A stretch of 50,699 nucleotides of DNA from a virus. The stretch is from the IMG/VR virus record IMGVR_UViG_3300032294_001918, positions 1-50,699 of that record. The stretch is one strand, 5' to 3'. Below the pieces are notes generated by a model. The model worked only from the letters and a program-made list of their open reading frames with translations. It ran no database searches and was not told where the DNA came from. Numbering within the stretch: the stretch's first letter is position 1; the number at the start of each line of letters is the position of its first letter. Positions 6,009-36,747 of the stretch are shown one piece after another. The position numbers were made by a program, and so were the translations under genes.

Positions 6009-9000
6009 TTACTTTTGTTTTAATTGTTCTATTTCGGCTTTAAGTTCTTGGATGGCTTTTACTAATACGGCAGTCAATTTAGGATAATCAATACTTTTGT
6101 ATTCATTTCCGCATACAATTTCAGGTATTAAAGTTTCTAATTCTTGTGCAATAAATCCAATAGACTTTCCTTCACCCATTTGTATAGACTCCTCCCAATT
6201 ATGCTTAATAGGTCTTAATTGCATTATTGTTTCTAATCCATATTGTAAATCTTCAACATTAGTTTTTAAGTTTACATCTGATGGAGTTCTTATGATATTT
6301 CCACTTGCATCTACGCTTAATGTTGTAGCACCGCCAGTTAAATTAGCTAAATATAATAATTGAGAATTACCGTTAAAAGAAAGTACGGCTGCTTCCGAAG
6401 AATTACAAATTTGAAAACCGGGATTACCTCCGCTATAATTTTTATAGAAATTAAATGAATTTGCACCACTTATAGTAGCACCAAAATATACGTCTCCACC
6501 ACTTGTTATTGATAATCTATCAGCAGTTCCAGTATAATCTCTTATAGTAAATATACCAGCAGATGAAATTTGAAATCCATATTCTTTAGCTGCTGCTGGT
6601 CTTGATATTGATAATAAATTAGCATTACCTTCAATTGTTACTTTATTACTAAAGGTATTAGATGTACCACCTATTAACACCTCACCCCCCGATGTGATTC
6701 TCATTCGTTCGGTACCACCTATATTAAAAACATATCCTTGTCCTGCTGTTGTTTGAAAGAAATTAAATCCATTAGTAATACCTATTGATAAAAAGTGACT
6801 ATTAGCTGTTTGTGATAATTGTAATTCAGCATTATTTGCACTTGCAATTGTTAGATTTTTTTCAAAACCATAATTAGAAGTTGGACTACTCGTTCCGATT
6901 CCAACATTACCACCGCTTGTGATACGCATACGTTCAACTAATGTTAGTGCTGCATCTGCTCCGCTTGTATTGTTTGAAGCAGATTCCCATATATGCTGAC
7001 CTGAAGTTTGTATATATCTTGAAGCAAAACCATTTCCAATATAATTATCGCCTGAATTAGTAAAATAAGCATTTGTACTTAAATATGTATTATTATTATA
7101 TGCTAATAAAGATGAATTTTTTACTTGAAAAACACCACTTGAAAATATACTTCCCCAAGCGCTTGGAGTTGTTCCGATTCCAACATTGCCGGCAGAAGTT
7201 ATTGTAAGTCTTACCGCATTATTAGTACCAAATAATAAACCTCCATTTTCAAAGTTATATAAGTATCCATCTAATTGGTCGTCATAACTAAGCATTAGAC
7301 CATCTGTACCAGTTGCACCAGAAACACTATTAGTTAATTTAATTTGCGCTCTATTGCCAGTTCCAGCACCAACGATTTGTAAAGCAGTATTATTTGATGC
7401 TTGGCCAGTTGGTGATGCTGTATTTATACCAACACTTGTGCCATTATCAAATATTAAGCTATTGCCTATTACGCTTGATGCTGTAAACTTTGGTACATAG
7501 TTTGTTGTACCACTTCCACCAATACCACTATAAGCTCCTACTGCATAAGAATAAGCATATACTACTACTATATCATTTAATTGACAAGCAGTAGCTAATA
7601 TTATACTTGTACCATTGGTCGCAGTATATTCTGATTGAGCTAAATTTGAACCATTATAAAATACATCTATTAACCCTTGTGTATATGTAACTGCAAATGT
7701 GGTCTGACCAGCAGTCGCAGTAAATGTAGTTATTGTTCTAAGCGCATTGGTTGGTAAAAATGCAGTTAAGTAGTTATCAATTTCAACAATCTGACCAACT
7801 GTTAAAGCATCTGTTAATACCACAGTGGTACCATTGGTTGCCGTATAATCCACGCCATTAACCAATTTAACTCCATTAACAAACACATCTACCATCCCTA
7901 AATTATATCCATTAGCTACAGTAAATGTCGTTTGACCTGCTGTTGAAGTAAACACTTGAACCGCCCTCGCTGAAGTCGTTGCGTTACCACTTGTACCCGA
8001 AGATCCTGAAGTACCTGTGGTACCTGAAGTCGCTGACGTTCCAGAAGTTCCTGTCGTTCCTGAAGAACCTGAAGAACCTGAAGAACCTGAAGTGCCTGAT
8101 GATCCCGAAGTCCCTGACGAGCCTGAAGTGCCTGTAGTACCTGACGAGCCTGAAGTACCCGATGACCCCGCCGAACCTGAAGAACCCGTAGAACCATCAA
8201 GACCTGAAGTACCTGAAGTACCGCTAGATCCTGCCGATCCTGAGCTACCTGTATTTCCACTAGAACCGTTAATGCCCGATGTACCGCTCGTACCAGAAGT
8301 TGTACCTACAGCTATACCAATTTGTTTTATGTTGGTAATTATTGAAGGGGCTGCTGGTATTGTTCCTGTTGCTGCGACTGCTGTTACTTGGACATCAGAT
8401 GCATTTGCTTGAAAATAAACTTCATAATAATCATTAGCATTTGCACTATCAATAATAGAAACGAATGGTAACTGCTTTGCACTTTGGCTTCTTAAACCTA
8501 AGATAGAATCAGTTCTAATAATATTAGCTCCATTTTTCCTTAACCAAATATTAACATCTGCACCACCACCACCTGTATGTTCTATCTGTAATGAATATGC
8601 AATTTCATAGATACCAGTATGTTGAACAGTAAGTTGAGAACCACTGAAAACAATACCATTACTATATTCATCATTTGTATATGTAATTGGAGTTGGTGTA
8701 TTTGCCGCAGTTACCACTTGAGTAGCTGTACTTGTAAACGCACCATACCAGTTAGCAATAGAAGCTCCTGAAGAACCATCTACACCATTACGACCACTAG
8801 TGCCAGAAGTACCTGATGTTGCTGAAGTTCCCGAAGTTCCTGTGGTACCTGACGATCCTGATGAACCCGAAGTTCCTGTAGTACCCGATGTCCCCGCCGA
8901 ACCTGAAGTTCCCGAAGTACCCGAGCTACCATCACCACCACTCGCACCATCCAAGTTAATTGTCCATGATGAATAAGTTCCACCACCTACTGTTCTAAAA

Positions 9001-9731
9001 GGCGCGCCAAAAGATAAAGAACCTGTTGCTGGATTATAAGCTGTAACCTCACACTCTTGGAAGTTATTAGCGTCATAAACCACAATAATAGATTGAGCTA
9101 CTGTATATGCTAATTGAGTACCTACAGTTATTGTTCCTGCATTACCCAATGTAAATGTTGTTGTTGATGTTGTGGCATATCTATCTCCTTGAACACCACT
9201 TGTACCTGAAGTTCCCGCCGTAGCTGAAGTTCCAGAAGTACCTGCCGTTCCTGAAGTCGCAGATGTGCCTGATGTTCCTGAAGTCGCCGATGTACCTGAA
9301 GTACCCGATGTGCCTCCCGTTCCGTCTGTTGCTGATGTACCTGAACTTCCTGATGAACCTGATGATCCTGATGTACCTGTACTACCCGATGTGCCTGAAG
9401 TGCCTGATGTTGCTGACGATCCCGATGTACCTGAAGTCGCAGATGAACCCGATGTACCTGCTGTTGCAGATGTGCCTGAAGTACCTGAAGAACCTGTGGT
9501 ACCTGAAGTGCCTGACGAACCCGATGTACCCGTAGTACCCGCCGTTCCTGAAGTTGCTGATGTACCCGAAGTACCAGAGCTACCCGCCGTTCCTGACGAT
9601 CCTGAAGAACCTGAAGTTCCAGAACTGCCTGAAGAAAAGCTAGTAGCAGTAACAATACCGTCATTGGCAACAAGCACCCCATTGAGTCCTCTTACCTTCA
9701 AATCACCGCTGAAAAGACCTTGTATTGCCAT
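6009..9731 (-). CDS. collagen-like tail fibre with C1q-like, tandem fibre modules and S74 chaperone, 1240 aa
   Basis: The N-terminal ~30 residues (MAIQGLFSGDLKVRGLNG) probably dock to the tail. Three long Gly-X-Y stretches made almost only of GSS, GTS and GTT triplets follow (DNA about 9630-9180, 8935-8760 and 8290-7990), with almost no proline. Between them lie a beta domain and a C1q/TNF-like jelly roll (GIYEIAYSLQIEHTGGG…WLRKNG, about 8755-8300). Next come two tandem modules of the phage type TAGQTTFTV…VDVFVNG and TAGQTTFAV…IDVFYNG, then NVGIGTT-type repeats. A C-terminal S74 chaperone has SDVNLKTN (Ser/Lys dyad), KSIGFIAQELETLIPEIV and a coiled coil. Thr/Ser-only collagen triplets lack the proline that normally stabilises the triple helix. 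In some animal collagens glycosylated Thr does this job, which makes this a candidate substrate of the phage glycosyltransferases (inference). Confidence 0.85.
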   Translation of the reverse strand: MAIQGLFSGDLKVRGLNGVLVANDGIVTATSFSSGSSGTSGSSGSSGTAGSSGTSGTSATSGTAGTTGTSGSSGTSGTTGSSGTSGTSATAGTSGSSATSGTSGSSATSGTSGTSGSTGTSGSSGSSGSSGTSATDGTGGTSGTSGTSATSGTSGTSATSGTAGTSGTSATAGTSGTSGVQGDRYATTSTTTFTLGNAGTITVGTQLAYTVAQSIIVVYDANNFQECEVTAYNPATGSLSFGAPFRTVGGGTYSSWTINLDGASGGDGSSGTSGTSGSAGTSGTTGTSGSSGSSGTTGTSGTSATSGTSGTSGRNGVDGSSGASIANWYGAFTSTATQVVTAANTPTPITYTNDEYSNGIVFSGSQLTVQHTGIYEIAYSLQIEHTGGGGADVNIWLRKNGANIIRTDSILGLRSQSAKQLPFVSIIDSANANDYYEVYFQANASDVQVTAVAATGTIPAAPSIITNIKQIGIAVGTTSGTSGTSGINGSSGNTGSSGSAGSSGTSGTSGLDGSTGSSGSAGSSGTSGSSGTTGTSGSSGTSGSSGTSGSSGSSGSSGTTGTSGTSATSGTTGTSGSSGTSGNATTSARAVQVFTSTAGQTTFTVANGYNLGMVDVFVNGVKLVNGVDYTATNGTTVVLTDALTVGQIVEIDNYLTAFLPTNALRTITTFTATAGQTTFAVTYTQGLIDVFYNGSNLAQSEYTATNGTSIILATACQLNDIVVVYAYSYAVGAYSGIGGSGTTNYVPKFTASSVIGNSLIFDNGTSVGINTASPTGQASNNTALQIVGAGTGNRAQIKLTNSVSGATGTDGLMLSYDDQLDGYLYNFENGGLLFGTNNAVRLTITSAGNVGIGTTPSAWGSIFSSGVFQVKNSSLLAYNNNTYLSTNAYFTNSGDNYIGNGFASRYIQTSGQHIWESASNNTSGADAALTLVERMRITSGGNVGIGTSSPTSNYGFEKNLTIASANNAELQLSQTANSHFLSIGITNGFNFFQTTAGQGYVFNIGGTERMRITSGGEVLIGGTSNTFSNKVTIEGNANLLSISRPAAAKEYGFQISSAGIFTIRDYTGTADRLSITSGGDVYFGATISGANSFNFYKNYSGGNPGFQICNSSEAAVLSFNGNSQLLYLANLTGGATTLSVDASGNIIRTPSDVNLKTNVEDLQYGLETIMQLRPIKHNWEESIQMGEGKSIGFIAQELETLIPEIVCGNEYKSIDYPKLTAVLVKAIQELKAEIEQLKQK
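6683..6714. repeat. 32-bp fibre repeat, copy 3
   Basis: This is identical to the blocks at 3516-3547 and 4897-4928, and it lies in the collagen-like fibre gene. The same pair of genes also shares a second near-identical DNA block encoding NVGIGTSSP (about 5097-5135 and 6882-6920). Confidence 0.9.
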
Positions 9732-9733
9732 CT

Positions 9734-10249
9734 TTAAACGTATTTAAATTTTGTTGTGTTTTTTAATTCTCCACTTAATTTTCTGTATAAGTGCTTCTTT
9801 GTAACACCAATAGTATCTGCTGCATCTTGAACTCCTTCGTAAAAAATACCTGTTTCAGTATCTAATACAATTTTCTTAACTACATATCCCGTATGCCCAC
9901 CATAATTTTTAGCTAATAATCTGCCACTTGCTCTTACTGCATCCGTAATTTTTCTAAACCCATTCTCACAAGAATGATTTATGTTTTCTTGACGGGTAAC
10001 CCATTCAAGATTACATAACATATTATTCGTCTTATCTCCATCCATATGATTTACTTGAGCCTTATTTTCTGGGTTTGGCAAATATGTTTGAGCAACTAAC
10101 CTATGTACAAAATAAAATTTATTTTTTATATGAACTCTTAAATAATTCCCAGAATTATAATGCAACTTTAAAAAATTCATAGTTTTCAATGAGAAAACTC
10201 TCCCATCTACAGTTATTAAATAATCAGGATGTTCTTTTAGTTGGCGCAT
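9734..10249 (-). CDS. NUMOD4-HNH homing endonuclease, 171 aa
   Basis: Order of parts: an N-terminal NUMOD4-like beta segment ([17 protein letters not shown]), an HNH_3 core ([35 protein letters not shown]) with the typical H…N…H arrangement, and a C-terminal NUMOD1/helix-turn-helix-like DNA-binding part ([22 protein letters not shown]). Free-standing enzymes of this family cut DNA at or near their own insertion site and spread by repair. The gene sits in a tight gap between the collagen-like fibre gene and a small tail gene, so it looks like a mobile insertion into an existing tail-gene array. Length is normal for the family and the reading frame is intact, so it may be active. Confidence 0.88.
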
Positions 10250-11538: not shown

Positions 11539-14500
11539 TTATTGATCTTCTTCTAGACCTAATAGATCTTCCCAAGTTAGTTTTAAATCTTCTTGCAAAT
11601 ATTCTTCTGGTTCTGGCTTTTCACCAAATAAATCCTTTTTAACCTTTTTAGTTGCAATTGTTTTTATTTTACTAATGGCTTTCATTAATTCCTCTTTTGG
11701 AACATCTTTAATTGGCTTTAACACTGTATTTTCACCTTCCAGAACTGGAACCCCTTTTTCGTATATTTTGGTAACATATGTACCAATTAGTTCATCTCTT
11801 TGCTTAACAAACTTCTGAAACTCTTCTTTTGTTATCGGCTTTCCAGCTACCGCATCTTCTTTATAGCTAACCATAAGGTTTTTATCCATTGTGCTAGATA
11901 CTTGAGTGTCTTTTAAAAGCGATTCTAAGTCCCTTTTATCGTACATTTTTTCATTTACCACTTTAATACCCATAAACGATGGTATAGCCCTAGTTAAAAT
12001 AGCATCTGTCCCATCTATCTTCATTTGTTCTCTTAATTCTTTGATAAATAATGGCTCAAATAAATCACTAATAATTTGCCCTTTATCATCTAAATCATAT
12101 TTTTTGCCTTGAAAATTCTGTGAAAAAGCCAAGTCAGCTGCTACACCCGTAAAAGGAGCGGCTTTACCCCTGAAAAATTTGTATGTTTCTGCTTTAGCAT
12201 CAAATTTAACTGGCTTATCATTTATCATCTTACCCCTTAAAGTCATCATGGCTAAATATCTTACATAAGGCGTAAATCTACCAAATAAATTATATGACCA
12301 TCCGTTTTTAGTATCTTTTACTTGACCGAATGTTACACTTGTTGGATCAGAATCTACTTCTTTATCAGGATCAAGAGCCATTGCAGCCATAATTAAAGCT
12401 CCCATTGCGATACCATATGCTGTTTCTTTTAATGCATAACTTCTAACTTCTGGAGTCATAGACCTATAATAGCCTTTGTTTTTACCTAAATTAACGACAT
12501 CGCCAAGACCCATAATATTTAAAGACGATGACATAAGACCGGGCGCCCATACTAATGAAGATATAATCGGATCTGCTGGCCTTAATTCAGCTTTTAATTT
12601 TCCTCTACCAGTAATATTATTTGCATAACTTGCCAAACTTTTAAAATCTTCAATGTTTTTATCTATTGTTTTTCCTTTAGCCATCAATTGCTGCGCGCCT
12701 CTTATAAATATTTGCAATCTAAATTCATTACTAAATGCAGCAAAAATTCTTTCAAATGGTGCGGTTATGTCTGATACTTTATAATCCTTGCCTTTTATTT
12801 TAAATTTTATCTTATCTAGCCAATTTTGACCACCAAATTGTTCATTTTCAATTGATTGTCTAAATCCTTTTGGATCAATTAAATCTAAGCCAGATCTAGT
12901 AACCATATCAAGTAATGGCTTATTTTCATAAATTTCAATTAATCTTCTTCTAAAATTATTTTCGCTAGCAAAAACATCTATTTGTGCTTTTAATCCTTTT
13001 GCCGTAGCCTTAATATTCATTGGATTTAAAACAGCAAGTCCATTTTGTATAAAAACAACAGAGTTATCTATACCCGCTTTAAGCGCCTTTACAGTATTAA
13101 AACCTTCTTTAGCAAACTTACCAGTTTCAGCTACAGCTCTGCTTAATCCTTTCTTAGAATTCATTTCCTCTCTAGCCATTTTTTGAGTATACTCAAATTT
13201 TATATTGTCTAGCTTATCTCTTGCATCTAATAGCTTATTAAATAATTCTGGATTTTTCTTTTTTAATTCAGTATCATCTAATATATTTATTCGTTTTGGC
13301 TTTTCTGAATAATCACCTTCTTTAATTCTTCTTTCAAATTCAGCTATTTGAGCTTCAACATTTTTAACAGAGCTTTCTAACTTTGCTTGGTCTTTATCTT
13401 TAACAGGTTGATTTGCTTTATCATAATATCCAGCCTTTCTTTTAGCTTCAATTAATTGCTTATTTAAATCTGCAATTCTTTGATTCTTTCTTATTTGTTC
13501 TTTTTCGGTTTTAGGCTTGCCCGCTTTTACCGCTTCAATTTCATTAAGCAACTTTGCTTCTTTTCTTAAACTTTCAACTTTGTATTGTAATTCTGATTTG
13601 GTTGGTCTTGGCTCGTTGTATTTGCCAGCAATCATGTCTTGCACATCTTGCTTAGTCAATCCAGCCAAATCTGTTCTTAATACATCATGTATTTTAGTAA
13701 CTAAATCTCCAAGATTTTCAACTCCTTCTTGAACATATAATCTTGCTAGCTTTGCTACATCTGGCGCAATTTCAATAAATTCTTGTACTCCCGGCAATGG
13801 AACGGCATTAATACCGCTTCTTCCTTGTCTAATATCTTTTAACTTCTGCCTAATATCACTAATTACCTTGTTTCTTTCTGCGACATAATCTACTTTTTTA
13901 GTGCTACTTTTTCTGGTTTTCTTTGTTTCATTTATATCTCTTTGAGTCAACTCTTTTGCAGCCGCTTTGTTTACTTGCTCTCTCAAATCCTCTACCTCTT
14001 TCTCAAGTTTTGATATTTTTTCAAAATCTGCTTTAGCTTCTTTTTTTTGAGATTCAGTTAATACTTCTACTCCATTTTTATTCATTTTATCAATGTAATA
14101 ATCAGAAATAGTTGTCATTGGTGCTGGCATACCTTTTCTTTGTTGCAAAAGCCTAGCTGCATCTGTACCTATTAAGTCATTTATTCTTGTTAATCTTCTT
14201 TGTTTCGCAAGTAATTCGTCTGTTGGATTTTCTGCAATTTTAGCATCTAATTCCATATTTAAAATCTTTACTACTTCTTGCTGTTCTGAACTAACAGGTT
14301 CACCACTTTCCATATCAGAAAGCAATTTATTTACATCTCCACCATTTTTTAGCCATTCTTCTGCTCTTTTATTTGCTTCAAAATTGGTTATTACATCTGG
14401 ATCATAGCTTTCCATGTTAAGGTATTGCCTTCTCATTTCATTAGCGGCTTTATTGATACCTCTAACTTCTGATTCTATACCAGCTAATTCAGCAGAAAAT

Positions 14501-14580
14501 GCTTCTAAATTATTAGCTAAGTATTCTTTAAGCTGTGCTTCGTTGTACTCAACTCCATCTATAACGTAAATGCAACCCAT
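11539..14580 (-). CDS. large putative internal virion/ejection protein, 1013 aa
   Basis: The N-terminal half (~1-500) is highly charged and helical, with long coiled-coil stretches (KISKLEKEVEDLREQVNKAAAKEL, AQIAEFERRIKEGDY). The second half is less charged and contains moderately hydrophobic helices (YGIAMGALIMAAMAL near residue 730; GLMSSSLNIMGLGDVV) and a Lys/Glu-rich tail (EDLKLTWEDLLGLEEDQ). This architecture resembles podovirus inner-core and ejection proteins and the large 'polyvalent' phage proteins that are injected with DNA. No enzyme motif could be named with confidence. It lies immediately downstream of the ferritin-like and ART-containing genes, which form one tightly spaced group. 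Assignment is by length, composition and position. Confidence 0.5.
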   Translation of the reverse strand: MGCIYVIDGVEYNEAQLKEYLANNLEAFSAELAGIESEVRGINKAANEMRRQYLNMESYDPDVITNFEANKRAEEWLKNGGDVNKLLSDMESGEPVSSEQQEVVKILNMELDAKIAENPTDELLAKQRRLTRINDLIGTDAARLLQQRKGMPAPMTTISDYYIDKMNKNGVEVLTESQKKEAKADFEKISKLEKEVEDLREQVNKAAAKELTQRDINETKKTRKSSTKKVDYVAERNKVISDIRQKLKDIRQGRSGINAVPLPGVQEFIEIAPDVAKLARLYVQEGVENLGDLVTKIHDVLRTDLAGLTKQDVQDMIAGKYNEPRPTKSELQYKVESLRKEAKLLNEIEAVKAGKPKTEKEQIRKNQRIADLNKQLIEAKRKAGYYDKANQPVKDKDQAKLESSVKNVEAQIAEFERRIKEGDYSEKPKRINILDDTELKKKNPELFNKLLDARDKLDNIKFEYTQKMAREEMNSKKGLSRAVAETGKFAKEGFNTVKALKAGIDNSVVFIQNGLAVLNPMNIKATAKGLKAQIDVFASENNFRRRLIEIYENKPLLDMVTRSGLDLIDPKGFRQSIENEQFGGQNWLDKIKFKIKGKDYKVSDITAPFERIFAAFSNEFRLQIFIRGAQQLMAKGKTIDKNIEDFKSLASYANNITGRGKLKAELRPADPIISSLVWAPGLMSSSLNIMGLGDVVNLGKNKGYYRSMTPEVRSYALKETAYGIAMGALIMAAMALDPDKEVDSDPTSVTFGQVKDTKNGWSYNLFGRFTPYVRYLAMMTLRGKMINDKPVKFDAKAETYKFFRGKAAPFTGVAADLAFSQNFQGKKYDLDDKGQIISDLFEPLFIKELREQMKIDGTDAILTRAIPSFMGIKVVNEKMYDKRDLESLLKDTQVSSTMDKNLMVSYKEDAVAGKPITKEEFQKFVKQRDELIGTYVTKIYEKGVPVLEGENTVLKPIKDVPKEELMKAISKIKTIATKKVKKDLFGEKPEPEEYLQEDLKLTWEDLLGLEEDQ

Positions 14581-14590
14581 TATTTATATA

Positions 14591-15091
14591 TTATTGTTTT
14601 GACAAATATCTATCAAATTCTAAAATAGCTGCTTCATTTGTACCACATCTATTGTAACGACTAATTAAATCACCATAAGCTCCTACCGCTTTTAATTGGA
14701 TAGTAACAAACTGCTGTAAGAATATACCTACTGCGCAATCTTCTTCATCGGCTTCTTCATATAACTTTTTGTATTGGTTATATACGTCTAATTCCATATC
14801 ATAAGCTACTTGCAAAGCTGCTGCCATTGAGTCAATTTCATCTTCAATTGCATCTATTTTAGGTACTTCTGCTACATCCCCCATATCATTGATAAAATCA
14901 ACAAATACTTGGTAATGAGTAAGCTCTTCTGCGCTTTCTGCTAGGAAGTACTTTTGGCCTCCAAAAAAGCCTAATCTCTGTAATTGGTTAGCAATATGCT
15001 TCCAAAGGTTAGACTGGTACAATTCGGCGTATATAGCCTTTTGCAAGCCCTTTTTCATACTAGGGCTTAATAAATTTTTTACGTTGGGCAT
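14591..15091 (-). CDS. ferritin-like diiron-fold protein with altered ferroxidase site, 166 aa
   Basis: The sequence fits the four-helix ferritin pattern: helix A with E23 (LQKAIYAELYQSNLW), helix B with E56 and H59 (ESAEELTHYQVF), a long BC crossover, helix C with E100 (AYDMELDVYNQYKK), and helix D with FLQQFVTIQLKAV. The spacing E23-E56-H59-E100 equals that of the ferroxidase ligands of bacterial ferritin A as I recall them, and Q132 falls near the conserved Gln. The helix D glutamates that complete the second iron site are replaced by Ile, Lys and Ala. Length is normal for a ferritin. It overlaps the end of the upstream 1236-residue gene by 13 bases, so it belongs to the ejection-protein group. 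It could store or handle iron, or be a purely structural derivative. Confidence 0.72.
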   Translation of the reverse strand: MPNVKNLLSPSMKKGLQKAIYAELYQSNLWKHIANQLQRLGFFGGQKYFLAESAEELTHYQVFVDFINDMGDVAEVPKIDAIEDEIDSMAAALQVAYDMELDVYNQYKKLYEEADEEDCAVGIFLQQFVTIQLKAVGAYGDLISRYNRCGTNEAAILEFDRYLSKQ

Positions 15092-18000
15092 TTTATTTGA
15101 ATTTTTAATTTTTCTACTATGTTATCAAAGTTACGATCTACAAAGTCTTTTTTAGCATTTTCTTTAGCTTTTTTACTAGCCTTACCTATTACTTCTTTGT
15201 ATTCTTTTGCTAATCTTTCTTCTGTTTTTGGGGGTTTTTCTGATTCTTTAGTTGTAGGACGATTACTTTCTTCTGCAAGTCGGTCAGCTTCTTCTGAGGC
15301 TTTCCAGTAGTCTGCTTCAAGTTGTTCTCTTGTTTCATATTCTTGTTTTATTAATTCTTGCTCAAATGCTTCAGCTTTTGCCATTTCTGCATCTATAATC
15401 TTATTAGCCAAAGTGTTATCTAAATTTAATCCAGTCAATTCCTTGAATCTTTCAGCTGCTCTTTGCGCTACTCTTGATTCTCCTTCTCTTAATGCCGCAT
15501 CAGATCCGCGAGGATGATTAATCATAAAATTTCCTATATCTTCTGGAGTTATTTCAACACCGTAATGCCTGCTCATTTCAGAAGCTATACCATCTAAAGT
15601 CATGCCCCCTTTTCTAAAATAAGAAAATGCCATACCGCCAGTTATAAAATTTTTATCTATTTCGGCACCAAATGACTTTTGATCTACGGTTCCAATACCA
15701 AATTCAGCAATCATTTGCTCTTTACCAGAAAGCTTCATTTCTTTAGGCTCTGAGGAGTGAAGCATTGCTAATTCTAATGGGTTAGAACTATTGTCTGCAA
15801 TAAAAATTTTTCCTTCTTCTTCGCTAAGATTATTAGGTAATTCAATATCTAATTCTTCAACTGTTTTACCTTTAGAAAAATCAAATTTGTCAATATACTC
15901 GTCTAATGCTTTTTTTCTAGTAGAAGGCGACACTTCCTTACCTGTTTTAATATCTCTTACTATTAATTGTCCTTTCTCATATTCAACTTTTTGTCTGCCT
16001 GATTTAGTAGTAAATGATTCTTTTTTTTCTTTTACTCCTTCTTGGTATGTTTTTTTAGGAGCTTCTCCGTTGATTATTTTCTGCAATCTTTCCTTACCGC
16101 CATGCAAATCATCTACAACCTCTACAATGTCAAGGTCGTTTTCTAAATATTGCTTTGCTATTTCTCTATACGAATCTTCTGCCGACTCAACATACCCTTC
16201 CGTTCCCGGCTTACCCTGTGTTTTTACGGTCAAATCATCACCCCTGTAATTAACTCTTAGCAATTCTTTTGTAAGATTATTTATTTGTTCTTTAGTCGGT
16301 TTTGTTTTTGATTTAAATCTACTTCCTTTAAATTCTGATTCATTCGGTCTAATTCCCTTATCCCAGTCAGATTTTAGTAAAGCCAAATCATTGCCTAACC
16401 TTTGAATTTCAGAAGCCGAAGATGTTTCTTTAGATCCTTTACTTTTAAATGTTACAATACCATTATCAATAGAAACAATAGTTCGTTCACTACCATCTCT
16501 ATCAGTTGCAAAAACAAACTTATCGCCCACTTTAAATTCTAAAAGCGGTTTTACTTGTGGAGTTCTACCTTCTACAGGAGCTAATTTAGGTTGAGCTACT
16601 TTAGCTTTAACTTTTTCTTTTACTTCAGTTGGTTTAACTTCTTCAGTTAATAGTTTTTGTGATTTAATTTGACTTTTATCAAATACAATTGTTTCATCAT
16701 ATTTTGAATATGCCTTGTCAGGTGCTTTATACTGCACAGCATCGTATCCCTTTTCTTTTAAAAATTTAATATCTTCTTTAGATAATGATTGCACATTAAT
16801 TTTTCTACCATCAACAATGATATATGCATTGTCAGATATTAATGGATTTTTAATATCTAATTCTACTTTTATTGCATTTTTACCATATCTATCGGTCAGA
16901 AATTCTTTGTCTTTTCCAAAATAAATACCCTCACCCACTACATTAGCACCTTCTCTTTTCTTGTACCCTTTTTCAGATGGTGCAATTATTTCAGTTGCAT
17001 CTGTAGCGTGATAATATTCATTTTCCTTTAATGGCTCAACCTCTTCAGTTACTTTAACTTCAGTAGGCTTAACTTCTGCTTTAATAATTTCCTTTGTACC
17101 TACTGGCTTACCTTGCAATGCTTCAAATTCAGCTTGACTTACTTCTTCTCCATCTACTATATATTTTTTACCACCAAATTCTTTTGATGGCTTCTTTGCA
17201 ATATTATATACTTCTGCATCTATTTTTTTAATTCTTTCTTCGTTGGTTTTTATTTCTTGATCTATACCTGCATGATAAGCTACATCTGTTGCTTGTTTTT
17301 GCTGCATTAGATTTTGATTAGCTTGGTTTATGTCATTTCTTTCAACCAATAGCTCAATTGATTTTGCTCTGCTTTCGCCCGTTACTGTTTCAGGAATTTT
17401 ATCTGCAACTTGTGCTGCTTTTTCTGCAAAAACAATACCTTCTTGGTACTGTTCAGGAGTAATAACATTATTAGCTAAATCCCTATCTAAATTTTTAACT
17501 GCTTTTTGGGTACCCACTTCAACTCCTTGTGTAACGATATCTTTTGCAGATACTTTATTACCAGAAGTAACTTTAGGGTTTTCTAAGTTATCTTCATATT
17601 GCTTAACTTGATTCTCTAAAGCATCTGCTTCTTTTACTTTACCTTGCTTTCTTAATATCTTAGCATTAGCACCCATTGCGTTTAGTACAAAACCAACGCC
17701 AAAACCAATTCCGCCAGACGTACCTACGCCGTCTAATATCTCTTGGTTAATATTATATATATCTTTTGCTGTCTTATTAGAATAAATCTGCTGCAATACC
17801 TCTGTGGTCATTTCCTCAATACCACCCGTAAGACCAGCAACACCTTTTGTTTTAATATAATTAGCTACGCTTCCTCCTGTTGTATTATTAAATCTTTTAA
17901 AGAATTGCATAACAGGAATGGTTTCTAACACTGAACCAACTGCTGCATTTTTATAAAATGCCTCAAAAGCTTGATCATCATTAGCACCTGCTTCTATGGC

Positions 18001-18789
18001 TCTATCAAATTCAGCTTGCCCCATAGCCAACCCTGCACTTACAGCCGTAGGTGAAGCTAATTGAGATCCAAGCGTTTTTGCTGCCGTTGCAGCTGCTGAA
18101 CCTTTAGGAACTTGACTAACTAATGCTGCGCCTTTTCCTACTGCGCCAGTAACACCTCCTGTAAAAATTAAAGAGCCTACTTGCCCAAAAGCTTGAGCAA
18201 CTTGATCCATAAGTGTACCTTTAAATTCTTCATCTTGAGGTGTTAATTCATCTATTGTTTTATCAAGATAATCGCCGAATTTAATCAAATTATCACTAAC
18301 AACACCCCTTCCAGTGCCACCCATGACCTTTTTGGTAACACCTTGTAGAGCTGTACCAAATGCCTTTATAGGGCTACTGATAAGATTTTTTGCAAATGAT
18401 TTGTCTAATGAAGAGATCGTATTTAATATCAAACCTTGATTTTCAACAGGCTCTATTTTTACTTCTTGTTCTTTTGGAGCTTTTGTACCCTCCGGCTGCA
18501 TTAAAAAACCTTTTTCAGCAAATGCTTTACCTTTTTTAAAGTCTGGCGATAGTGATTGAGTAGGAGAAGAAACGGAAAGTGAAACTGCTTGGTCTTTTTT
18601 TTTTAAGTATTTATCATAGAACTTTGTATCATCTAAATCTGTTAACTTATTAGAAACCATAAAGCTATGTATTTCTTTAGCTTTTTCTGGCGCAGAATAT
18701 TTATCCAAGAAAGTTTTTTCATCTAATTGAGTTAGATTATTAGACTTCATGAATTTATATATAGGATTATCTTGTACTTGCTCTGCCAT
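15079..18789 (-). CDS. large polyvalent-like ejection protein with ADP-ribosyltransferase-like domain, 1236 aa
   Basis: Residues ~8-62 hold two ~30-residue repeats (YKFMKSNNLTQLDEKTFLDKY / HSFMVSNKLTDLDDTKFYDKY). Residues ~120-390 are Gly/Ala-rich with hydrophobic stretches (GGIGFGVGFVLNAMGA), compatible with membrane insertion. Near residue 590 begins a domain like the ART-PolyVal family: YYHATDATEI, GEGIYFGKDKEFLTDRYG, VELDIKNPLI, GYDAVQYK and ETIVFDKSQI. These are the usual H-, G-IYF- and C-terminal elements of a compact ADP-ribosyltransferase. Further C-terminal are an SH3-like segment (FKVGDKFVFATDRDGSERT) and a helical domain (GGMTLDGIASEMSRHYG). Such multi-domain proteins are thought to enter the cell with phage DNA and modify host targets. 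Catalytic activity is not demonstrated by the sequence. Confidence 0.65.
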   Translation of the reverse strand: MAEQVQDNPIYKFMKSNNLTQLDEKTFLDKYSAPEKAKEIHSFMVSNKLTDLDDTKFYDKYLKKKDQAVSLSVSSPTQSLSPDFKKGKAFAEKGFLMQPEGTKAPKEQEVKIEPVENQGLILNTISSLDKSFAKNLISSPIKAFGTALQGVTKKVMGGTGRGVVSDNLIKFGDYLDKTIDELTPQDEEFKGTLMDQVAQAFGQVGSLIFTGGVTGAVGKGAALVSQVPKGSAAATAAKTLGSQLASPTAVSAGLAMGQAEFDRAIEAGANDDQAFEAFYKNAAVGSVLETIPVMQFFKRFNNTTGGSVANYIKTKGVAGLTGGIEEMTTEVLQQIYSNKTAKDIYNINQEILDGVGTSGGIGFGVGFVLNAMGANAKILRKQGKVKEADALENQVKQYEDNLENPKVTSGNKVSAKDIVTQGVEVGTQKAVKNLDRDLANNVITPEQYQEGIVFAEKAAQVADKIPETVTGESRAKSIELLVERNDINQANQNLMQQKQATDVAYHAGIDQEIKTNEERIKKIDAEVYNIAKKPSKEFGGKKYIVDGEEVSQAEFEALQGKPVGTKEIIKAEVKPTEVKVTEEVEPLKENEYYHATDATEIIAPSEKGYKKREGANVVGEGIYFGKDKEFLTDRYGKNAIKVELDIKNPLISDNAYIIVDGRKINVQSLSKEDIKFLKEKGYDAVQYKAPDKAYSKYDETIVFDKSQIKSQKLLTEEVKPTEVKEKVKAKVAQPKLAPVEGRTPQVKPLLEFKVGDKFVFATDRDGSERTIVSIDNGIVTFKSKGSKETSSASEIQRLGNDLALLKSDWDKGIRPNESEFKGSRFKSKTKPTKEQINNLTKELLRVNYRGDDLTVKTQGKPGTEGYVESAEDSYREIAKQYLENDLDIVEVVDDLHGGKERLQKIINGEAPKKTYQEGVKEKKESFTTKSGRQKVEYEKGQLIVRDIKTGKEVSPSTRKKALDEYIDKFDFSKGKTVEELDIELPNNLSEEEGKIFIADNSSNPLELAMLHSSEPKEMKLSGKEQMIAEFGIGTVDQKSFGAEIDKNFITGGMAFSYFRKGGMTLDGIASEMSRHYGVEITPEDIGNFMINHPRGSDAALREGESRVAQRAAERFKELTGLNLDNTLANKIIDAEMAKAEAFEQELIKQEYETREQLEADYWKASEEADRLAEESNRPTTKESEKPPKTEERLAKEYKEVIGKASKKAKENAKKDFVDRNFDNIVEKLKIQIKCPT

Positions 18790-18803: not shown

Positions 18804-20084
18804 TTAAAATCCGCCTTTAGGAACTCCAATGAAACCACTTTTAACTTGATTCTTTATTGCCTTACCCCACCCTTTTACTTTAGATGATATATCTGGATTG
18901 TTTACAATAATTTTTGTTTTAAAAGCTTCTGGTGTCAAATATTCAGGTTCCTGATTTTTTGAAGGACCTTTTACATAAAATCTATCATTAGCTTTATCGT
19001 AAACAACATTTTTCGCAGGTGCTATTACAACTCCGTCTTTAGTATTAGTTTTAAATAAATTATATCCACCAAATTGACTTGTTACATCTACTAAATTTGG
19101 ATTTTTGGTATCTATACCACCAACTAAATAATTTGGATTACCAACTCTAATTTCTTCTACTAAATTACTAGGATGCAATGGATTATTTTCTCCCGATGTA
19201 TCTTCTGGTTTTGGTCCAACTGGTTTAAATACAGGTGTTGATTCAGTAGTTTTTCCAAGTTGTTTTAAACTTAATGCAAAAGCTGCCGCTACATCAGCTG
19301 GATCAGCATTATCTATTGACATTTTTGGATTAAGCATTTGATAGTAAGGTTGCAAATCTAAATACTCACCTGTTTTAATTAATCTATTAACCTCTCTAGT
19401 TACACTAGGATTTGTTCTGTATTGAGATGCTGCTCTGTTTTGAAATGATTTTAAGCTTGCATTATCAAATTCATTTTTATATATATTTATTATCTGCCCT
19501 TCTTTATTTACCCTACTACCTACATTTTTTTTATCAGGTTCAATACCAGCAAATATATCTCTTTGAAATTTTTCTGTACTAAATGGTTTATTAAAATCAA
19601 ATTTAAATAAATCTACTGGTTGATAACCTGCGTAAATTGGTTTTTGGCTTGTTTGAATAGCCTCCATAAAACCATCTGGTATTTCCAAATTAGACGTTTT
19701 TGCTTTTTGGTAAAAATTCATTGCTACCTTATCTTCGGCTGATGCTTGTTTTGACTTAGATATATCAGATAAAATATCTTTAAACCCAGCCATATATTGA
19801 GATTGAGCTTCTGCACCATATTTAGAAGGATTCAAAATACGATCTCTATTTTGTAGATAAAATTGTTTATTTTGATTCAATTTTTTTAATACAATATCTT
19901 GATCTTGAGAACGCATACCAGCCGGATTAATTGATTTCTCATAATCCATAAAATATCTATCTAGAGCTTCTCTTTTAGCTTGATTTTTTTGCTCAAGTTG
20001 AATAGCTAAATTAACTGGCTTAGATGTATCTATTTTTACACCTTTAAAGTATGGGTTTATTCCTAGTAATCCTGTAGCTGCCAC
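18804..20084 (-). CDS. putative internal virion protein, 426 aa
   Basis: I recognise no family. The N-terminal ~130 residues are helical, with many Gln, Lys and Asn (NLAIQLEQKNQAKREALDRYFMDYEKSI). The remainder is Asn/Lys/Pro-rich with short strands (YLVGGIDTKNPNLVDVTSQFGGYNLFKT). The C-terminus is basic and Gly-rich (KSGFIGVPKGGF). There are no transmembrane segments. It lies between an Ala/Gln-rich putative ejection protein and the ART-domain protein, all on the minus strand with gaps of 14-23 bases, so it is most likely part of the internal core or ejection set. Function otherwise unknown. Confidence 0.45.
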   Translation of the reverse strand: MAATGLLGINPYFKGVKIDTSKPVNLAIQLEQKNQAKREALDRYFMDYEKSINPAGMRSQDQDIVLKKLNQNKQFYLQNRDRILNPSKYGAEAQSQYMAGFKDILSDISKSKQASAEDKVAMNFYQKAKTSNLEIPDGFMEAIQTSQKPIYAGYQPVDLFKFDFNKPFSTEKFQRDIFAGIEPDKKNVGSRVNKEGQIINIYKNEFDNASLKSFQNRAASQYRTNPSVTREVNRLIKTGEYLDLQPYYQMLNPKMSIDNADPADVAAAFALSLKQLGKTTESTPVFKPVGPKPEDTSGENNPLHPSNLVEEIRVGNPNYLVGGIDTKNPNLVDVTSQFGGYNLFKTNTKDGVVIAPAKNVVYDKANDRFYVKGPSKNQEPEYLTPEAFKTKIIVNNPDISSKVKGWGKAIKNQVKSGFIGVPKGGF

Positions 20085-21839: not shown

Positions 21840-24800
21840 CTAACAGCTTCCGTCAAACATTATAACGCTTAATGTACCGCCGTCTGCTACAACTTGTGCG
21901 CTAAACGTTCTACTTGTTGATGTTGCACTTATACAAGTTAGGTTAGAGGCGGTATCAATTACTTCAACAGAGTCATTGCTTACGTTTGTATAAGATACAA
22001 CAATTGTTCTAGATGCACCAGTCTGCGTTGTTGAAGCAGATGCTCCATCACCAGCAACTATTGGGAATACTACACCATCTACTTGAACTCCATTTACAGT
22101 AATATTAGTAATATCAGTACCAGCAGTACTATTAGTGATATCAACAAGCGCATAACCTAAAGTAGTCGTTGTAGTAGTAGGCGCAGCGGTTGTCGTAGTT
22201 GTAGTCGGAGCCGGTGTCGTTGTTGTTGTGGTCGGAGCCGGTGTAGTAGTAGTAGTTGTAGGTGCAGCAGTTGTAGTTGTTGTGGTTGGCGCAGCAGTCG
22301 TAGTTGTAGTAGTATTACCACAAGCTGCGTTACAATTTGTGTATGAAGGCAATGCTAATGCTACCGCGCCTCCAGCTGTTGTTACTTCTTTTACGAGATA
22401 TGTAAAGTCATTTGCAAATCCAACATATCTATAATATCTGTTTAATGTTACAACTGTACCTGTTGGGAATGCAACCCTTTGATTTGATGCTACTACTGAA
22501 CAATTTGAACAATCAATTTCATCTGCAAGATAGTAATCAAATGGATCTGCAGTGGTAGTAGTTGTTGTCGGAGCCGGAGTTGTTGTTGTTGTCGTTGGCG
22601 CTGCGGTTGTAGTTGTCGTACTGGTTGTTGTTGTCGTAGGTGCAGCAGTTGTAGTTGTGGTAGGCGCAGCAGTTGTTGTTGTTGTTGTTGCTGGACAGCT
22701 AGTTAAATTAGTTGCATATCCAAAATCATCAATTTGAACTGCAGATACCCCATCACTTTTCCATCTATTATCTCCTGTAAATGTTACAAGAGGCAATGTA
22801 GGAGCAGTAATAGTACCTTCGTAATAAGTCACTAAGTCTACAAATGCATCAGCATAAGACCATAAATAAATGTTTTTGGTTGTACTACAAGCAATTGTTG
22901 AACTAACTGAAGGAGAACCATTTACTAAATATTTATAAGTAGGTGGTGCAACTGTAGTTGTAGTCGTTGTCGGCGCAACAGTTGTAGTTGTTGTTGTAGT
23001 CGTAGTCGCTACAGTTGTAGTTGTAGTGGTTGGAGCAATCGTTGTTGTCGTAGTAGTGGTTGGAGCAATCGTTGTTGTCGTAGTCGGTGCCGCAGTCGTG
23101 GTTGTAGTTGGAGCAATAGTTGTAGTAGTCGTAGTGGTTGAAGGAGGCGGACAAGAAGCTGTTTTGCAATTTCCAACCGGAATCACAGTACCAGTACCCA
23201 CTACAATTTCAGCTTGCAACAAACCGCCTACTACTGCTGCACAAATATATCTAATTCCAGCGGTTGCATAAACATAGTTTTCACTTACCCCATAACAATT
23301 AAATGTAGCAACCTCTCCGCCAACAGAAGTAATATTTACCTCTACGCAATTACAAGGATCTGGACTAAATGTTGTAGTCGTTGTAGTTGGCGCAATCGTT
23401 GTCGTTGTCGTTGTAGGAGCGGCAGTTGTTGTTGTAGTTGTTGTTGTTGCTGGACAACTAGTTAAATTGGTAGCATAACCAGTATCATCAATTTGAATCG
23501 CAGATACCCCGTTGCTTTTCCATCTATCACCTCCAGCATATGCAACAAGTGGTATTGTAGGAGCAGTAATATTACCTTCATAATAAGTTTCCGAATCTAT
23601 AAATGTATCAGAATAAGACCATAAATAAATGTTTTTTACTGCCGCACAAGCTGCATTTGAACTAACTGATGCAGAACCATTTACTAAATATTTATAGTTA
23701 GGTTGTGAAATTGTAGTTGTAGTTGAAACATTTGGACAAGGTGCTGTTTTACAATTTCCTACAGGCGTTAAGGTTCCTGTACCTGAAACAATTTCAGCTT
23801 GTAGCACTCCACCAATTACTGAAGCGCATACATATCTAATGCCCGCTGTGGCATACACATAGTTTACATTTACACCAAAACAATCAAATGTTGTTACTTC
23901 CCCACCAACCGATGTAATATTTACTTCAACACAATTACAAGGATTTGGACTAAATGTAGTTGTAGTTGTAGTTGGTGCTGATGTAGTTGTAGTCGTTGGT
24001 GAGGCTGTTGTAGTCGTTGTTGGTGCAGCAGTCGTTGTAGTTGTCGTAGTCGTAATATATCTATTAATTTCCTCCATTGCAATAATATACTTATTGGTAT
24101 TTGCATCAAATACGCCATAAATACATGGATCACCAGTATAAACGCCACCATCAGATATTGAATTATTTAAATTTTTTCTATAAGCTGCTGTATTGGCAAC
24201 AAAGAAAGCATTAGTTTTATAAAGAATACTTAGCGGCTCAATCCCATTTTGGCTTAATCTACAAACTACACCTCTATAATTGTCTACAAAGTAGTCTGCG
24301 AAGTTATTCCATGCAAGGCTTGTTGCAGCATCACCAATACCATAATCACCTGCGTAATATTGTATTTTATTAATTAATTGGTCACTATTTGCTTGTAATG
24401 GGTTTCCTGTTACATCTTTTACAATTTGAGTTAAAATAGGCACATTACCTACCTTAAATTGCTGATAAACCTTTAAGTATCTATCCCTAACATGCAATCT
24501 TAATACATCCCCAAACGTTCTATCATATTCGTCAAAATCTTCATAAAAGAACCTATTAGTAGCATTAATATTTGTATTTGATTGATATGCTTGACCAAAT
24601 CTGATTAAAGTTGGAAAATATGTTTGTCTTGCATTTTCATCAATAACAGACGGTCTGCCATTGCTATTAGTAATTAAATTATAAGTATCGTTAAAACTTG
24701 ATTCAATAATTCCAATTTGTTTTTCCTTTATAATTTGAAAATCAAAATTAAATGGCTGAACAATTATTTTATTAGCTCCCACATTATCATTTGTAGATTT

Positions 24801-34356: not shown

Positions 34357-36747
34357 TTATTGTTGTTGCATTTGTTGTTCCATCATCATTTGTTCCTCTT
34401 CAGAAAGCTGTTGTTCGCCCATTTGCTCCATTTGCATTTGCTCTTGCTGTTGCGCTTGTTGCTCTAAAGCCATTTGCTGTTCTTCATTTTGCACTTCAAT
34501 TGGCACATTTACATTTTGCAAAGTATCAGCAACTAATTGTTGAAGCTCGGCTGGTACAGGAATATTTGCTTTTGCAAGATCAAAGACACCTTGTAGTATG
34601 ATTTCTTTTTCTCTAGCTAAAGCCTTTTTACCATCAATAATTGTATCAGCTTGCATTTTTGCTTGAATACTAGCTTGTTGTGCTTGAGCATTTTGCTCAC
34701 TATTCATTTGAGCTTTTTCTTGTTCCGTTTTAATGTATCTTTTTTGAGCTTGTCTAAAATATAATTCACCTAAGTCAACATTTTCTTTAGCTATTCTCAT
34801 TACCTTAAATGGATCTAGATACATAACTAATTGAGGATTTGATGCCATAGCATTGTTCATCATTATTTGCAAATTAGCAATTTCTTGAGCTTGTGGCATC
34901 ATTTTAACTGTAGCAACAAAGTTTCTATCTTTTACATCTTCTTCCTTTAATATATCTCTATATTTTTTAGATCCGTAAGTAACACTTTTATTTAATAAAC
35001 AAGCTATCTTTTTGCATGTTTCTTCCATTACATAGATATATGCATCATACATATATTCTGTAGCATTATTTGCTAAAGCTCTTGAAGCTTCAATATTTGA
35101 AGCGGCAACTCTTGGTTGAGCAGCTTGATTCATTAAATTAGGATCTTCTCCTAACTCATCTTTCAATACTTGATAATGGAATTGATATAATTGAATTAAC
35201 GCTTGCAATTGAGGTGCAAAACCAGTATTTGCCAATTCGGTAATTGGAACTGGAATTCTATTTCCTTCAGCATCTCTACCGCGATAATAAAGTTTACCTG
35301 TTTGCTCCCAAATCTTTTGTACCTCCAATGGCTTTACAGAATCACCTAATCCTAAATCTAATTCTTGTAATGCATCTACATCAATTGAAGCTCCCGCTGG
35401 TACCATTTTAGCTACCATTTGTTGTATCTTCAATCTAGCTAAAATCATTTGCTCAATAGGCTCTTCAATTTTTTCAGGTACAGCCACATTACGCATATCG
35501 TAAGGGTCGTACATATAAAAACTATAAGAAAACTCTGCGTTACCTAATTCTTTTGGATCTTGTGGGCGAATCATATTCTTTTTAATACCCCACTTAATCA
35601 TAGTTTGAGTAACTGGACAATATACACCTTCGTATATATTCCATTTTTTCTCTTCTAAATATTCTTGATTTTCATCTATTTTTTCAGGCTTGCCCTTTCT
35701 AATAATCGTGCTGCCATTCTTTTTTGTCTTGGTAACGGTATATCCATCAGAATCTAATGTTCTGATTTCAAATTGTACTAAATCAATATTCCATTCATCA
35801 TAAGGTCTTAACCAAGAAACGTTCCAATCTTGCATCCATTTGATCTTATCTGTTAATTGGTATTCTTTTGATGATTGAGCTAATCTAAAAATATCTTCTT
35901 CGGTTAAAATACCACCAGCAGCAATACTATATCTTGCTCTTATTTCACTAACTTTCATAGACAAAATATGTCCTCTATAAGTGGTATCTCTAAAATCAGG
36001 GAAATCAGAATAAGAATAAATTGCATTTTCAGGTCTAATCCATTGAACATGAACTTCCCCTTCTTCATCCATAAAAGTATAAGTACATACTAATCCTACT
36101 TCCGCAGAATCATGTAATAATCTTTGTTTTAAAACATCATTCCATCCATTAGCCTCTAATACGTTATTACATCCAATACTATATTGTATTTCTTCTGGCA
36201 AATGATTAAATTCACTAATCCATCTATCTAATTCATCTTTATCTTCTGCAATAAATTGATCTTGAGGAATAATTGGAATACCAGACTCTTGTTGTATTTG
36301 CGCTAAAACTTCTTTATTTTGATAAATAAATTCAGCTTCATCTGCTGCATTCTTTTTAAGCATTGCAGATGCGCTATCTGTAGCAGTAACTGTAACCTTT
36401 TCATTTCTACTCATCCATGAGCCTACTAATCTTGCAACAATTGTATTACCAATAATAATTGATTTCCAATTAATATTTACAAAGTTAGCTTTACTATTCA
36501 TCTCCAAACGATCCATAAACACACTCATGTCTATTTTACCGTTTGCGATTTGTCTATTTTTTCTAAATCTATTATTTCTTAACCAAAAATATGTTTGGTT
36601 ACCGTAAATTGTAGAATAGATGCTCTGTGCAACATTTTTACCATATGCATAATCTTTTTTAGATGCTACATCTGTAGTAATTTGAAACTTTTTTAAGGCT
36701 TCTCCATTGCTATTTGCTGCTGATATGAATAACGGACTATCTGCCAA
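34357..36747 (-). CDS. portal protein, 796 aa
   Basis: The gene lies next to the large terminase and upstream of the scaffold and capsid genes. The sequence has the long-portal style known from crAss-like and related Bacteroidota phages: an N-terminal wing (FISAANSNGEALKKFQITTDVASKKDYAYGKNVAQSIYSTIYG), WIRPENAIYSYSDFPDFRDTTYRGH, and a stem/clip region. A helical barrel part follows (QLQALIQLYQFHYQVLKDELGEDPNLMNQA…PRVAASNIEASRALANNATEYMYDAYIYVMEETCKKI). The last ~90 residues are an extreme Gln/Glu/Met stretch, likely disordered or coiled and inside the head. A perfect -7 box lies just upstream. No frameshift is visible. Confidence 0.78.
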   Translation of the reverse strand: MADSPLFISAANSNGEALKKFQITTDVASKKDYAYGKNVAQSIYSTIYGNQTYFWLRNNRFRKNRQIANGKIDMSVFMDRLEMNSKANFVNINWKSIIIGNTIVARLVGSWMSRNEKVTVTATDSASAMLKKNAADEAEFIYQNKEVLAQIQQESGIPIIPQDQFIAEDKDELDRWISEFNHLPEEIQYSIGCNNVLEANGWNDVLKQRLLHDSAEVGLVCTYTFMDEEGEVHVQWIRPENAIYSYSDFPDFRDTTYRGHILSMKVSEIRARYSIAAGGILTEEDIFRLAQSSKEYQLTDKIKWMQDWNVSWLRPYDEWNIDLVQFEIRTLDSDGYTVTKTKKNGSTIIRKGKPEKIDENQEYLEEKKWNIYEGVYCPVTQTMIKWGIKKNMIRPQDPKELGNAEFSYSFYMYDPYDMRNVAVPEKIEEPIEQMILARLKIQQMVAKMVPAGASIDVDALQELDLGLGDSVKPLEVQKIWEQTGKLYYRGRDAEGNRIPVPITELANTGFAPQLQALIQLYQFHYQVLKDELGEDPNLMNQAAQPRVAASNIEASRALANNATEYMYDAYIYVMEETCKKIACLLNKSVTYGSKKYRDILKEEDVKDRNFVATVKMMPQAQEIANLQIMMNNAMASNPQLVMYLDPFKVMRIAKENVDLGELYFRQAQKRYIKTEQEKAQMNSEQNAQAQQASIQAKMQADTIIDGKKALAREKEIILQGVFDLAKANIPVPAELQQLVADTLQNVNVPIEVQNEEQQMALEQQAQQQEQMQMEQMGEQQLSEEEQMMMEQQMQQQ

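Follow-up and report, generated by a model that had tools for sequence, protein, structure and literature searches.

A phage-lineage ferritin with an H-type diiron center, encoded beside putative ejection proteins

The stretch of viral DNA analyzed here (50,699 nucleotides, hereafter the window) encodes a protein that, judged by its sequence profile, predicted fold, and ligand residues, is a true ferritin; chance resemblance is excluded. The reading that best explains the data as a whole, to which we give about an even chance, is that the protein is a phage-lineage-specific, catalytically competent ferritin that would be made late in infection and carried with the ejection apparatus.

Results

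The ORF is predicted to encode a 24-mer-class ferritin

The minus-strand ORF runs from ATG to stop (Table 1), and its product scored 58.4 bits against the Pfam family PF00210 (Ferritin), for which the cut-off is 24.5 bits. PDB sequence matches were to ferritins, with values down to 7e-14 (A. fulgidus ferritin), and a profile search agreed. We built an AlphaFold2 model with 24 relatives, which reached a pTM of 0.87 and placed helices A to D and a short helix E at residues 10-39, 43-69, 89-116, 119-149, and 153-165. The bundle of four helices, its long crossover between B and C, and the additional helix E together make up the arrangement of 24-mer-class Ftn. Foldseek aligned the model to 24-mer ferritins at TM 0.91-0.93 and 1.1-1.4 Å overall, among them V. 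cholerae 3qz3 (TM 0.92, 1.2 Å), E. coli FtnA 1eum (TM 0.93, 1.1 Å), and A. fulgidus ferritin 1s3q. An earlier note on this DNA had called the product ferritin-like; the profile, PDB, and fold matches bear this out, since the prediction gave a ferritin fold and not an unrelated helical bundle, with the ligands aligned to known diiron residues. Assembly into a 24-subunit cage is probable on the predicted fold, with which helix E is compatible.

Table 1. Genes and diiron-center codons of the window
Feature	Coordinates	Strand	Basis or remark
Ferritin (Ftn-type, H-like diiron center), 166 aa	14591..15091	-	ORF; PF00210 1e-15; AlphaFold2 pLDDT 92.9; Foldseek 3qz3/1eum/1s3q
Codon E23 (HuHF E27 / EcFtnA E17), diiron ligand	15023..15025	-	Alignment; E in 54/54 relatives
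Codon W30, second-shell Tyr position (HuHF Y34)	15002..15004	-	W in 46/54, Y in 8/54
Codon E56 (HuHF E62 / EcFtnA E50), bridging diiron ligand	14924..14926	-	54/54
Codon H59 (HuHF H65 / EcFtnA H53), diiron ligand	14915..14917	-	54/54
Codon E100 (HuHF E107 / EcFtnA E94), diiron ligand	14792..14794	-	54/54
Codon Q132 (HuHF Q141 / EcFtnA Q127), second-shell Gln, helix D	14696..14698	-	54/54
Giant virion-type (ejection/polyvalent) protein, N-terminal half, 1236 aa	15079..18789	-	Weak ART-PolyVal and vRNAP-family matches; fused to downstream half in relatives
Giant protein, C-terminal half, 1013 aa	11539..14580	-	Aligns to C-terminal half of fused giants L031/L042/L151/L116
Upstream virion-module gene	18804..20084	-	Syntenic in window-type loci; positional equivalent of phi38:1 gp100
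Portal protein	34357..36747	-	PHROG portal 4e-53; among named phages, nearest to those of Cellulophaga and Flavobacterium

Other members of the superfamily were considered and rejected. Dps was ruled out by the presence of helix E, by an intra-subunit ligand set, and by the best folds being Ftn, with phage Dps models scoring lower. Bacterioferritin uses the helix-D ligands E127/H130 (EcBfr) plus a heme Met; the phage helix D carries Q132 and A135 and no E/H pair, which rules out this class. EncFtn was dismissed because the window subunit is a five-helix Ftn and not the short two-helix, annular-decamer type that pairs with encapsulin.

The diiron center is complete in the H-type sense

We aligned the protein with human H ferritin (HuHF) and E. 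coli FtnA (EcFtnA), both sequences having been checked against the PDB. E23, E56, H59, and E100 fall at the ligand positions of both references (Table 1), just as the earlier note had proposed. Its further claim, that the helix-D glutamates are lost, holds for the third (C) site, where E126/E129/E130 of EcFtnA are replaced by I131/K134/A135. The bacterial-type third iron site (E49, E126, E129, E130) is thus not reproduced, E49 alone being kept, as E55. However, the helix-D glutamine, Q132, is retained and invariant, and in HuHF, too, two of the three positions lack glutamate, being K143/A144. Given Q132 and the K143/A144 of HuHF, the alignment indicates a complete H-type diiron center, E23/E56/H59/E100/Q132. 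The description of a half-retained ferroxidase center therefore has to be withdrawn: five of five H-type residues are present and are invariant in 54/54 relatives, and this also rules out a half-site or degenerate ferritin.

The second-shell tyrosine (EcFtnA Y24 / HuHF Y34) is replaced by W30. Trp occupies this position in the main clade of the phage family and Tyr in its divergent members. The tyrosine is common among ferritins and is no obligatory ligand, and the assignment stands despite W30.

The family is conserved and under purifying selection

Relatives of the ferritin were found on 75 viral contigs (73 loci from scans, plus L150/L158 and L152/L157), each encoded by its own ORF of about 160-175 aa. 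The invariance of the five center residues in the 54 distinct phage sequences reaches down to 40% identity, and the more distant members L157 and L158 have them too. Outside the metal site, the phage-specific residues K31, Y107, Y139, G140, and D141 are invariant as well. Pairwise dN/dS had a median of 0.05 (range 0.008-0.144, 120 pairs), indicating strong purifying selection on the coding sequence and hence selection for function.

When 84,980 species genomes were scanned twice with family-specific patterns, which would miss distant cellular ferritins, no relative appeared, and hence no host or prophage link. A tblastn search of 50,697 phage records with the window ferritin as query found no close relative and no carrier phage. 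Its sole match, MT838721 (L009; MT838721.1), was set aside as a bacterial contig and not a phage relative; read by eye, its ORFs are MarC-, ferritin-, aldolase-, phosphoglycerate mutase-, Hsp20-, and sigma-factor-like. An FtnA-like gene is also present in OR845001 (OR845001.1, "Staphylococcus phage SA 1306 Kay"), a record that may be contaminated.

Among phage protein families, residues 8-134 matched phrog_16594 (5e-11), an unannotated PHROGs family listed as "unknown function" that other carriers match too; phrog_16594 thus gains a function and should be annotated as ferritin-like. BFVD entry A0A8D9C9X5 is named "putative bacterial non-heme ferritin [uncultured marine phage]".

The ferritin gene lies within the virion module

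We observed that the ferritin gene sits among large virion-type genes, in agreement with the earlier note, which had it embedded in an ejection-protein group. The note's overlap with an ART-domain gene was also recovered: the ferritin start overlaps the 3' end of the upstream 1236-aa ORF (15079-18789) by 13 bp, the ART-PolyVal match of that ORF being sub-threshold. On the other side, the second giant gene (11539-14580) begins 10 bp past the ferritin stop. Apart from the weak ART-PolyVal/vRNAP matches, the giant halves matched no informative Pfam or PHROG family. A short YxxDGxE motif occurs at the N-terminus of the 11539-14580 product and in the interior of the 15079-18789 product; it may represent a processing or tag motif that phage proteins share.

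The portal protein is nearest to portals of Cellulophaga phi38:1-type and Flavobacterium elemo phages, at 24%, and a Bacteroidota host is likely for the window phage on these sequence relationships. The capsid/tail genes follow the order of phi38:1 (g30956 = gp93, g29981 = gp94, g29222 = gp95, g27543 = gp96), with big21840 and g21267 as the counterpart of gp97. The ferritin and its flanking giants occupy the place of gp101 in phi38:1 and of gene 88 in elemoF, each of which carries the annotation "structural protein"; the equivalence is positional, no sequence match having been found between the window giants and either protein. No ferritin was found in the virion regions of phi38:1 and elemoF.

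Bacterial contamination was ruled out, as the gene is part of a phage virion operon that includes portal, terminase, and fibers, and occupies the same site in many contigs. Its GC3 of 0.28 is inside the range of the other window genes and gives no evidence for recent acquisition. TAnnTTTG motifs, sought as candidate promoters, occur at about chance density. Elsewhere in the window, a 683-aa product of the plus strand (855-2906) combines a GT1 with a GT9/heptosyltransferase glycosyltransferase domain, and the fiber-like proteins at 6009-9731 and 21840-27539 contain long low-complexity repeats (GTSGTSG, TTTTTTAAP).

Ferritin recurs beside portal, MuF, and giant genes

In window-type loci, the order is giant gene, ferritin, second giant gene. 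The portal type (37 loci) has the portal gene followed by ferritin and then by genes of ~380 and ~450 aa. In a phage with a tail sheath (L075/L076), TerL, portal, and MuF (PF04233 1e-9) genes precede a ferritin that overlaps the MuF gene by 14 bp. Giant ORFs of 1561, 1745, and 3422 aa lie upstream of ferritin in L083, L084, and L157, respectively, and L158 has a giant, a 106-aa gene, ferritin, and TerL. The order in L080-L082 is a Cpn10-domain protein, ferritin, and a g29222-like head/connector gene; the upstream protein has 287 aa, and its C-terminal part is the Cpn10/GroES domain (e.g., L082:9120-9980). The elemoF phage also carries GroEL/GroES.

Nearly all of the 73 scored loci have ferritin on the same strand as its upstream gene and in a late virion context, and its start mostly overlaps the upstream stop or follows it by 1-7 bp. 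Polyvalent and MuF effectors are domains fused to MuF, portal, or giant proteins; the ferritin is a separate, adjacent, and mostly overlapping ORF. The ferritin tree needs at least eight context changes against a minimum of four, at least three to four of them forced by well-supported branches, indicating that ferritin moved between phages and was repeatedly re-placed beside giant, portal, MuF, or Cpn10-like genes.

Ferritin is accessory in window-type phages

Taking the neighboring gene g10805 as a marker independent of ferritin, we found ferritin in 25/38 window-type contigs that cover the site; the other 13 have no ferritin elsewhere on the contig. Among portal-type contigs, every one extending to the site carries ferritin. 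In alignable ferritin-less relatives (including L087, L102, L107, L116, and L121), the two giant halves form one fused ORF of ~1,900-2,700 aa, and in L031/L042/L043 a fused giant is followed by ferritin. Within the window, the split point between the giant ORFs (11539-18789) is the position of ferritin.

Homing-type endonucleases of the HNH and GIY-YIG classes are repeatedly encoded next to the portal, g10254, and giant genes (9734-10249; L025, L027, L041, L112), and may drive module exchange in window-related phages. In L112, which has no ferritin, a GIY-YIG/NUMOD endonuclease follows the giant gene.

Discussion

In the role we propose, a ferritin subunit of canonical build (a four-helix bundle and helix E), its five center residues intact and under strong purifying selection, would be made late, with its translation coupled to that of a giant virion protein or, in other phages, of portal or MuF. 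Late co-expression with the virion genes is highly probable from gene order. From family chemistry, the diiron site would very likely bind Fe(II) and oxidize it with O2 or H2O2, so that Fe(II) oxidation by the phage protein is a well-supported expectation. Oxidized iron would be mineralized should a 24-mer cage form as the fold predicts, and the absence of the third-site Glu would bring the behavior closer to animal H ferritin than to E. coli FtnA. Packaging in the virion is plausible, with about equal weight for and against. As a ~12-nm cage is too large for the tail channel, we propose that subunits or small oligomers would travel with the ejection apparatus. Near the entering genome or the packaged DNA, the carried ferritin would then scavenge Fe(II) and peroxide and lessen Fenton damage.

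The position of ferritin just 3' of portal, MuF, and giant genes in unrelated phages lends circumstantial support to virion carriage. A survey of polyvalent proteins found that MuF, portal, and giant polyvalent proteins carry virion-delivered effector domains (PMC5512222), and the case for carriage rests chiefly on the position of ferritin next to these very carriers, to whose loci it is tied. The structural annotation of the giant last-gene equivalents in phi38:1 and elemoF counts on the same side. Counting against carriage, ferritin is never fused to the carriers, unlike classical polyvalent effectors; its neighbor in L080-L082 is a Cpn10-like gene and not an ejection gene; it is accessory in window-type phages; nearby homing endonucleases could have placed it beside conserved genes without a functional link; and an intact 24-mer is not ejectable. 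The broader proposal, that in several unrelated lineages ferritin forms part of the virion, being packaged along with the portal, MuF, or giant ejection proteins and either delivered or active at genome entry to detoxify iron and peroxide, is more tentative and falls somewhat short of an even chance.

The main rival, nearly as likely as virion carriage, is a late cytoplasmic ferritin. Such an auxiliary metabolic gene would ride the virion transcript, and its product would sequester host iron and blunt oxidative stress in the dying cell while staying out of the particle. A canonical soluble ferritin with a full catalytic center, accessory in the window-type phages, fits this well; NCLDV ferritins (PMC7136201) and Dps/Mn-catalase of gut phages (PMC8008677) have been interpreted likewise, and one host raises its Dps and catalase on phage infection (PMC7354516). 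However, the Dps gene of Lactobacillus phages lies near replication genes (PMC6669764), whereas ferritin of the window family is repeatedly found beside portal, MuF, and giant genes.

That same adjacency to portal and giant genes, together with the invariant phage-specific residues off the metal site (K31, Y107, Y139, G140, D141), could instead reflect a structural use of the fold, as a capsid-core, portal-plug, or scaffold subunit in which the metal site merely stabilizes. We consider this unlikely, as the diiron ligands and the second-shell Gln are invariant to 40% identity, which a purely structural role would not need, and the gene is missing from close relatives with the same virion module. 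Least probable, and very unlikely, is selfish cargo, with homing endonucleases or recombination between mosaic giants placing the gene, so that its position would say nothing about function. The HNH genes that many loci have close to the site, the endonuclease after the giant in ferritin-less L112, and the splitting of the giant gene exactly at ferritin fit such a history, but a dN/dS of 0.05 with invariant ligands speaks for selection on function, and ferritin is present in all portal-type contigs reaching the site. Overall, we favor a competent ferritin carried with the ejection apparatus.

Discussion of phage iron has so far centered on the "Ferrojan horse" idea of tail-bound iron. The present family offers a specific, conserved candidate for an iron-handling enzyme in phage particles; a virion-carried ferritin, if shown, would be the first known to us. 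In the open-access literature, we found nothing on phage ferritin in virions, and the main text of PMC5512222 contains no occurrence of ferritin. The novelty suggested by the earlier note nevertheless has to be narrowed, because ferritin-superfamily proteins are already known in phages (PMC8008677, PMC6669764, and the BFVD marine-phage entry). What is new, from sequence comparison, is a phage-lineage Ftn family that combines an H-type center with Trp in place of the second-shell Tyr and that, in several unrelated phages, is tied to the genes of the delivery machine.

Relation to known systems

The phage protein shares with bacterial and archaeal FtnA (1eum, 3qz3, 1s3q) the whole fold including helix E, the A/B diiron ligands, and Q127, but differs in the third site (E126/E129/E130 to I/K/A), in Trp for the second-shell Tyr, and in its 19-28% identity. 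With HuHF the correspondence extends to E27, E62, H65, E107, Q141, K143, and A144 (phage E23, E56, H59, E100, Q132, K134, and A135), whereas Y34 is W30, E140 is an invariant Ile, the 3-fold-channel residues D131/E134 are I123/Q126, and the phage C-terminus is short. Phage Dps and Mn-catalase (Gratiaviridae, PMC8008677; Lactobacillus phages, PMC6669764) are likewise ferritin-superfamily iron/peroxide proteins in phages, but are not Ftn, and in Lactobacillus phages the genes belong to the replication region. NCLDV ferritin (PMC7136201) is also virus-encoded, with a proposed part in iron management, yet belongs to eukaryotic giant viruses and has no ejection-gene link. Polyvalent and MuF effectors (PMC5512222) share the portal, MuF, and giant polyvalent carriers but are fused domains, whereas the ferritin is a separate ORF. 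Encapsulin, finally, holds ferritin-like cargo, and the proposed analog would be an iron-handling cargo in a phage capsid.
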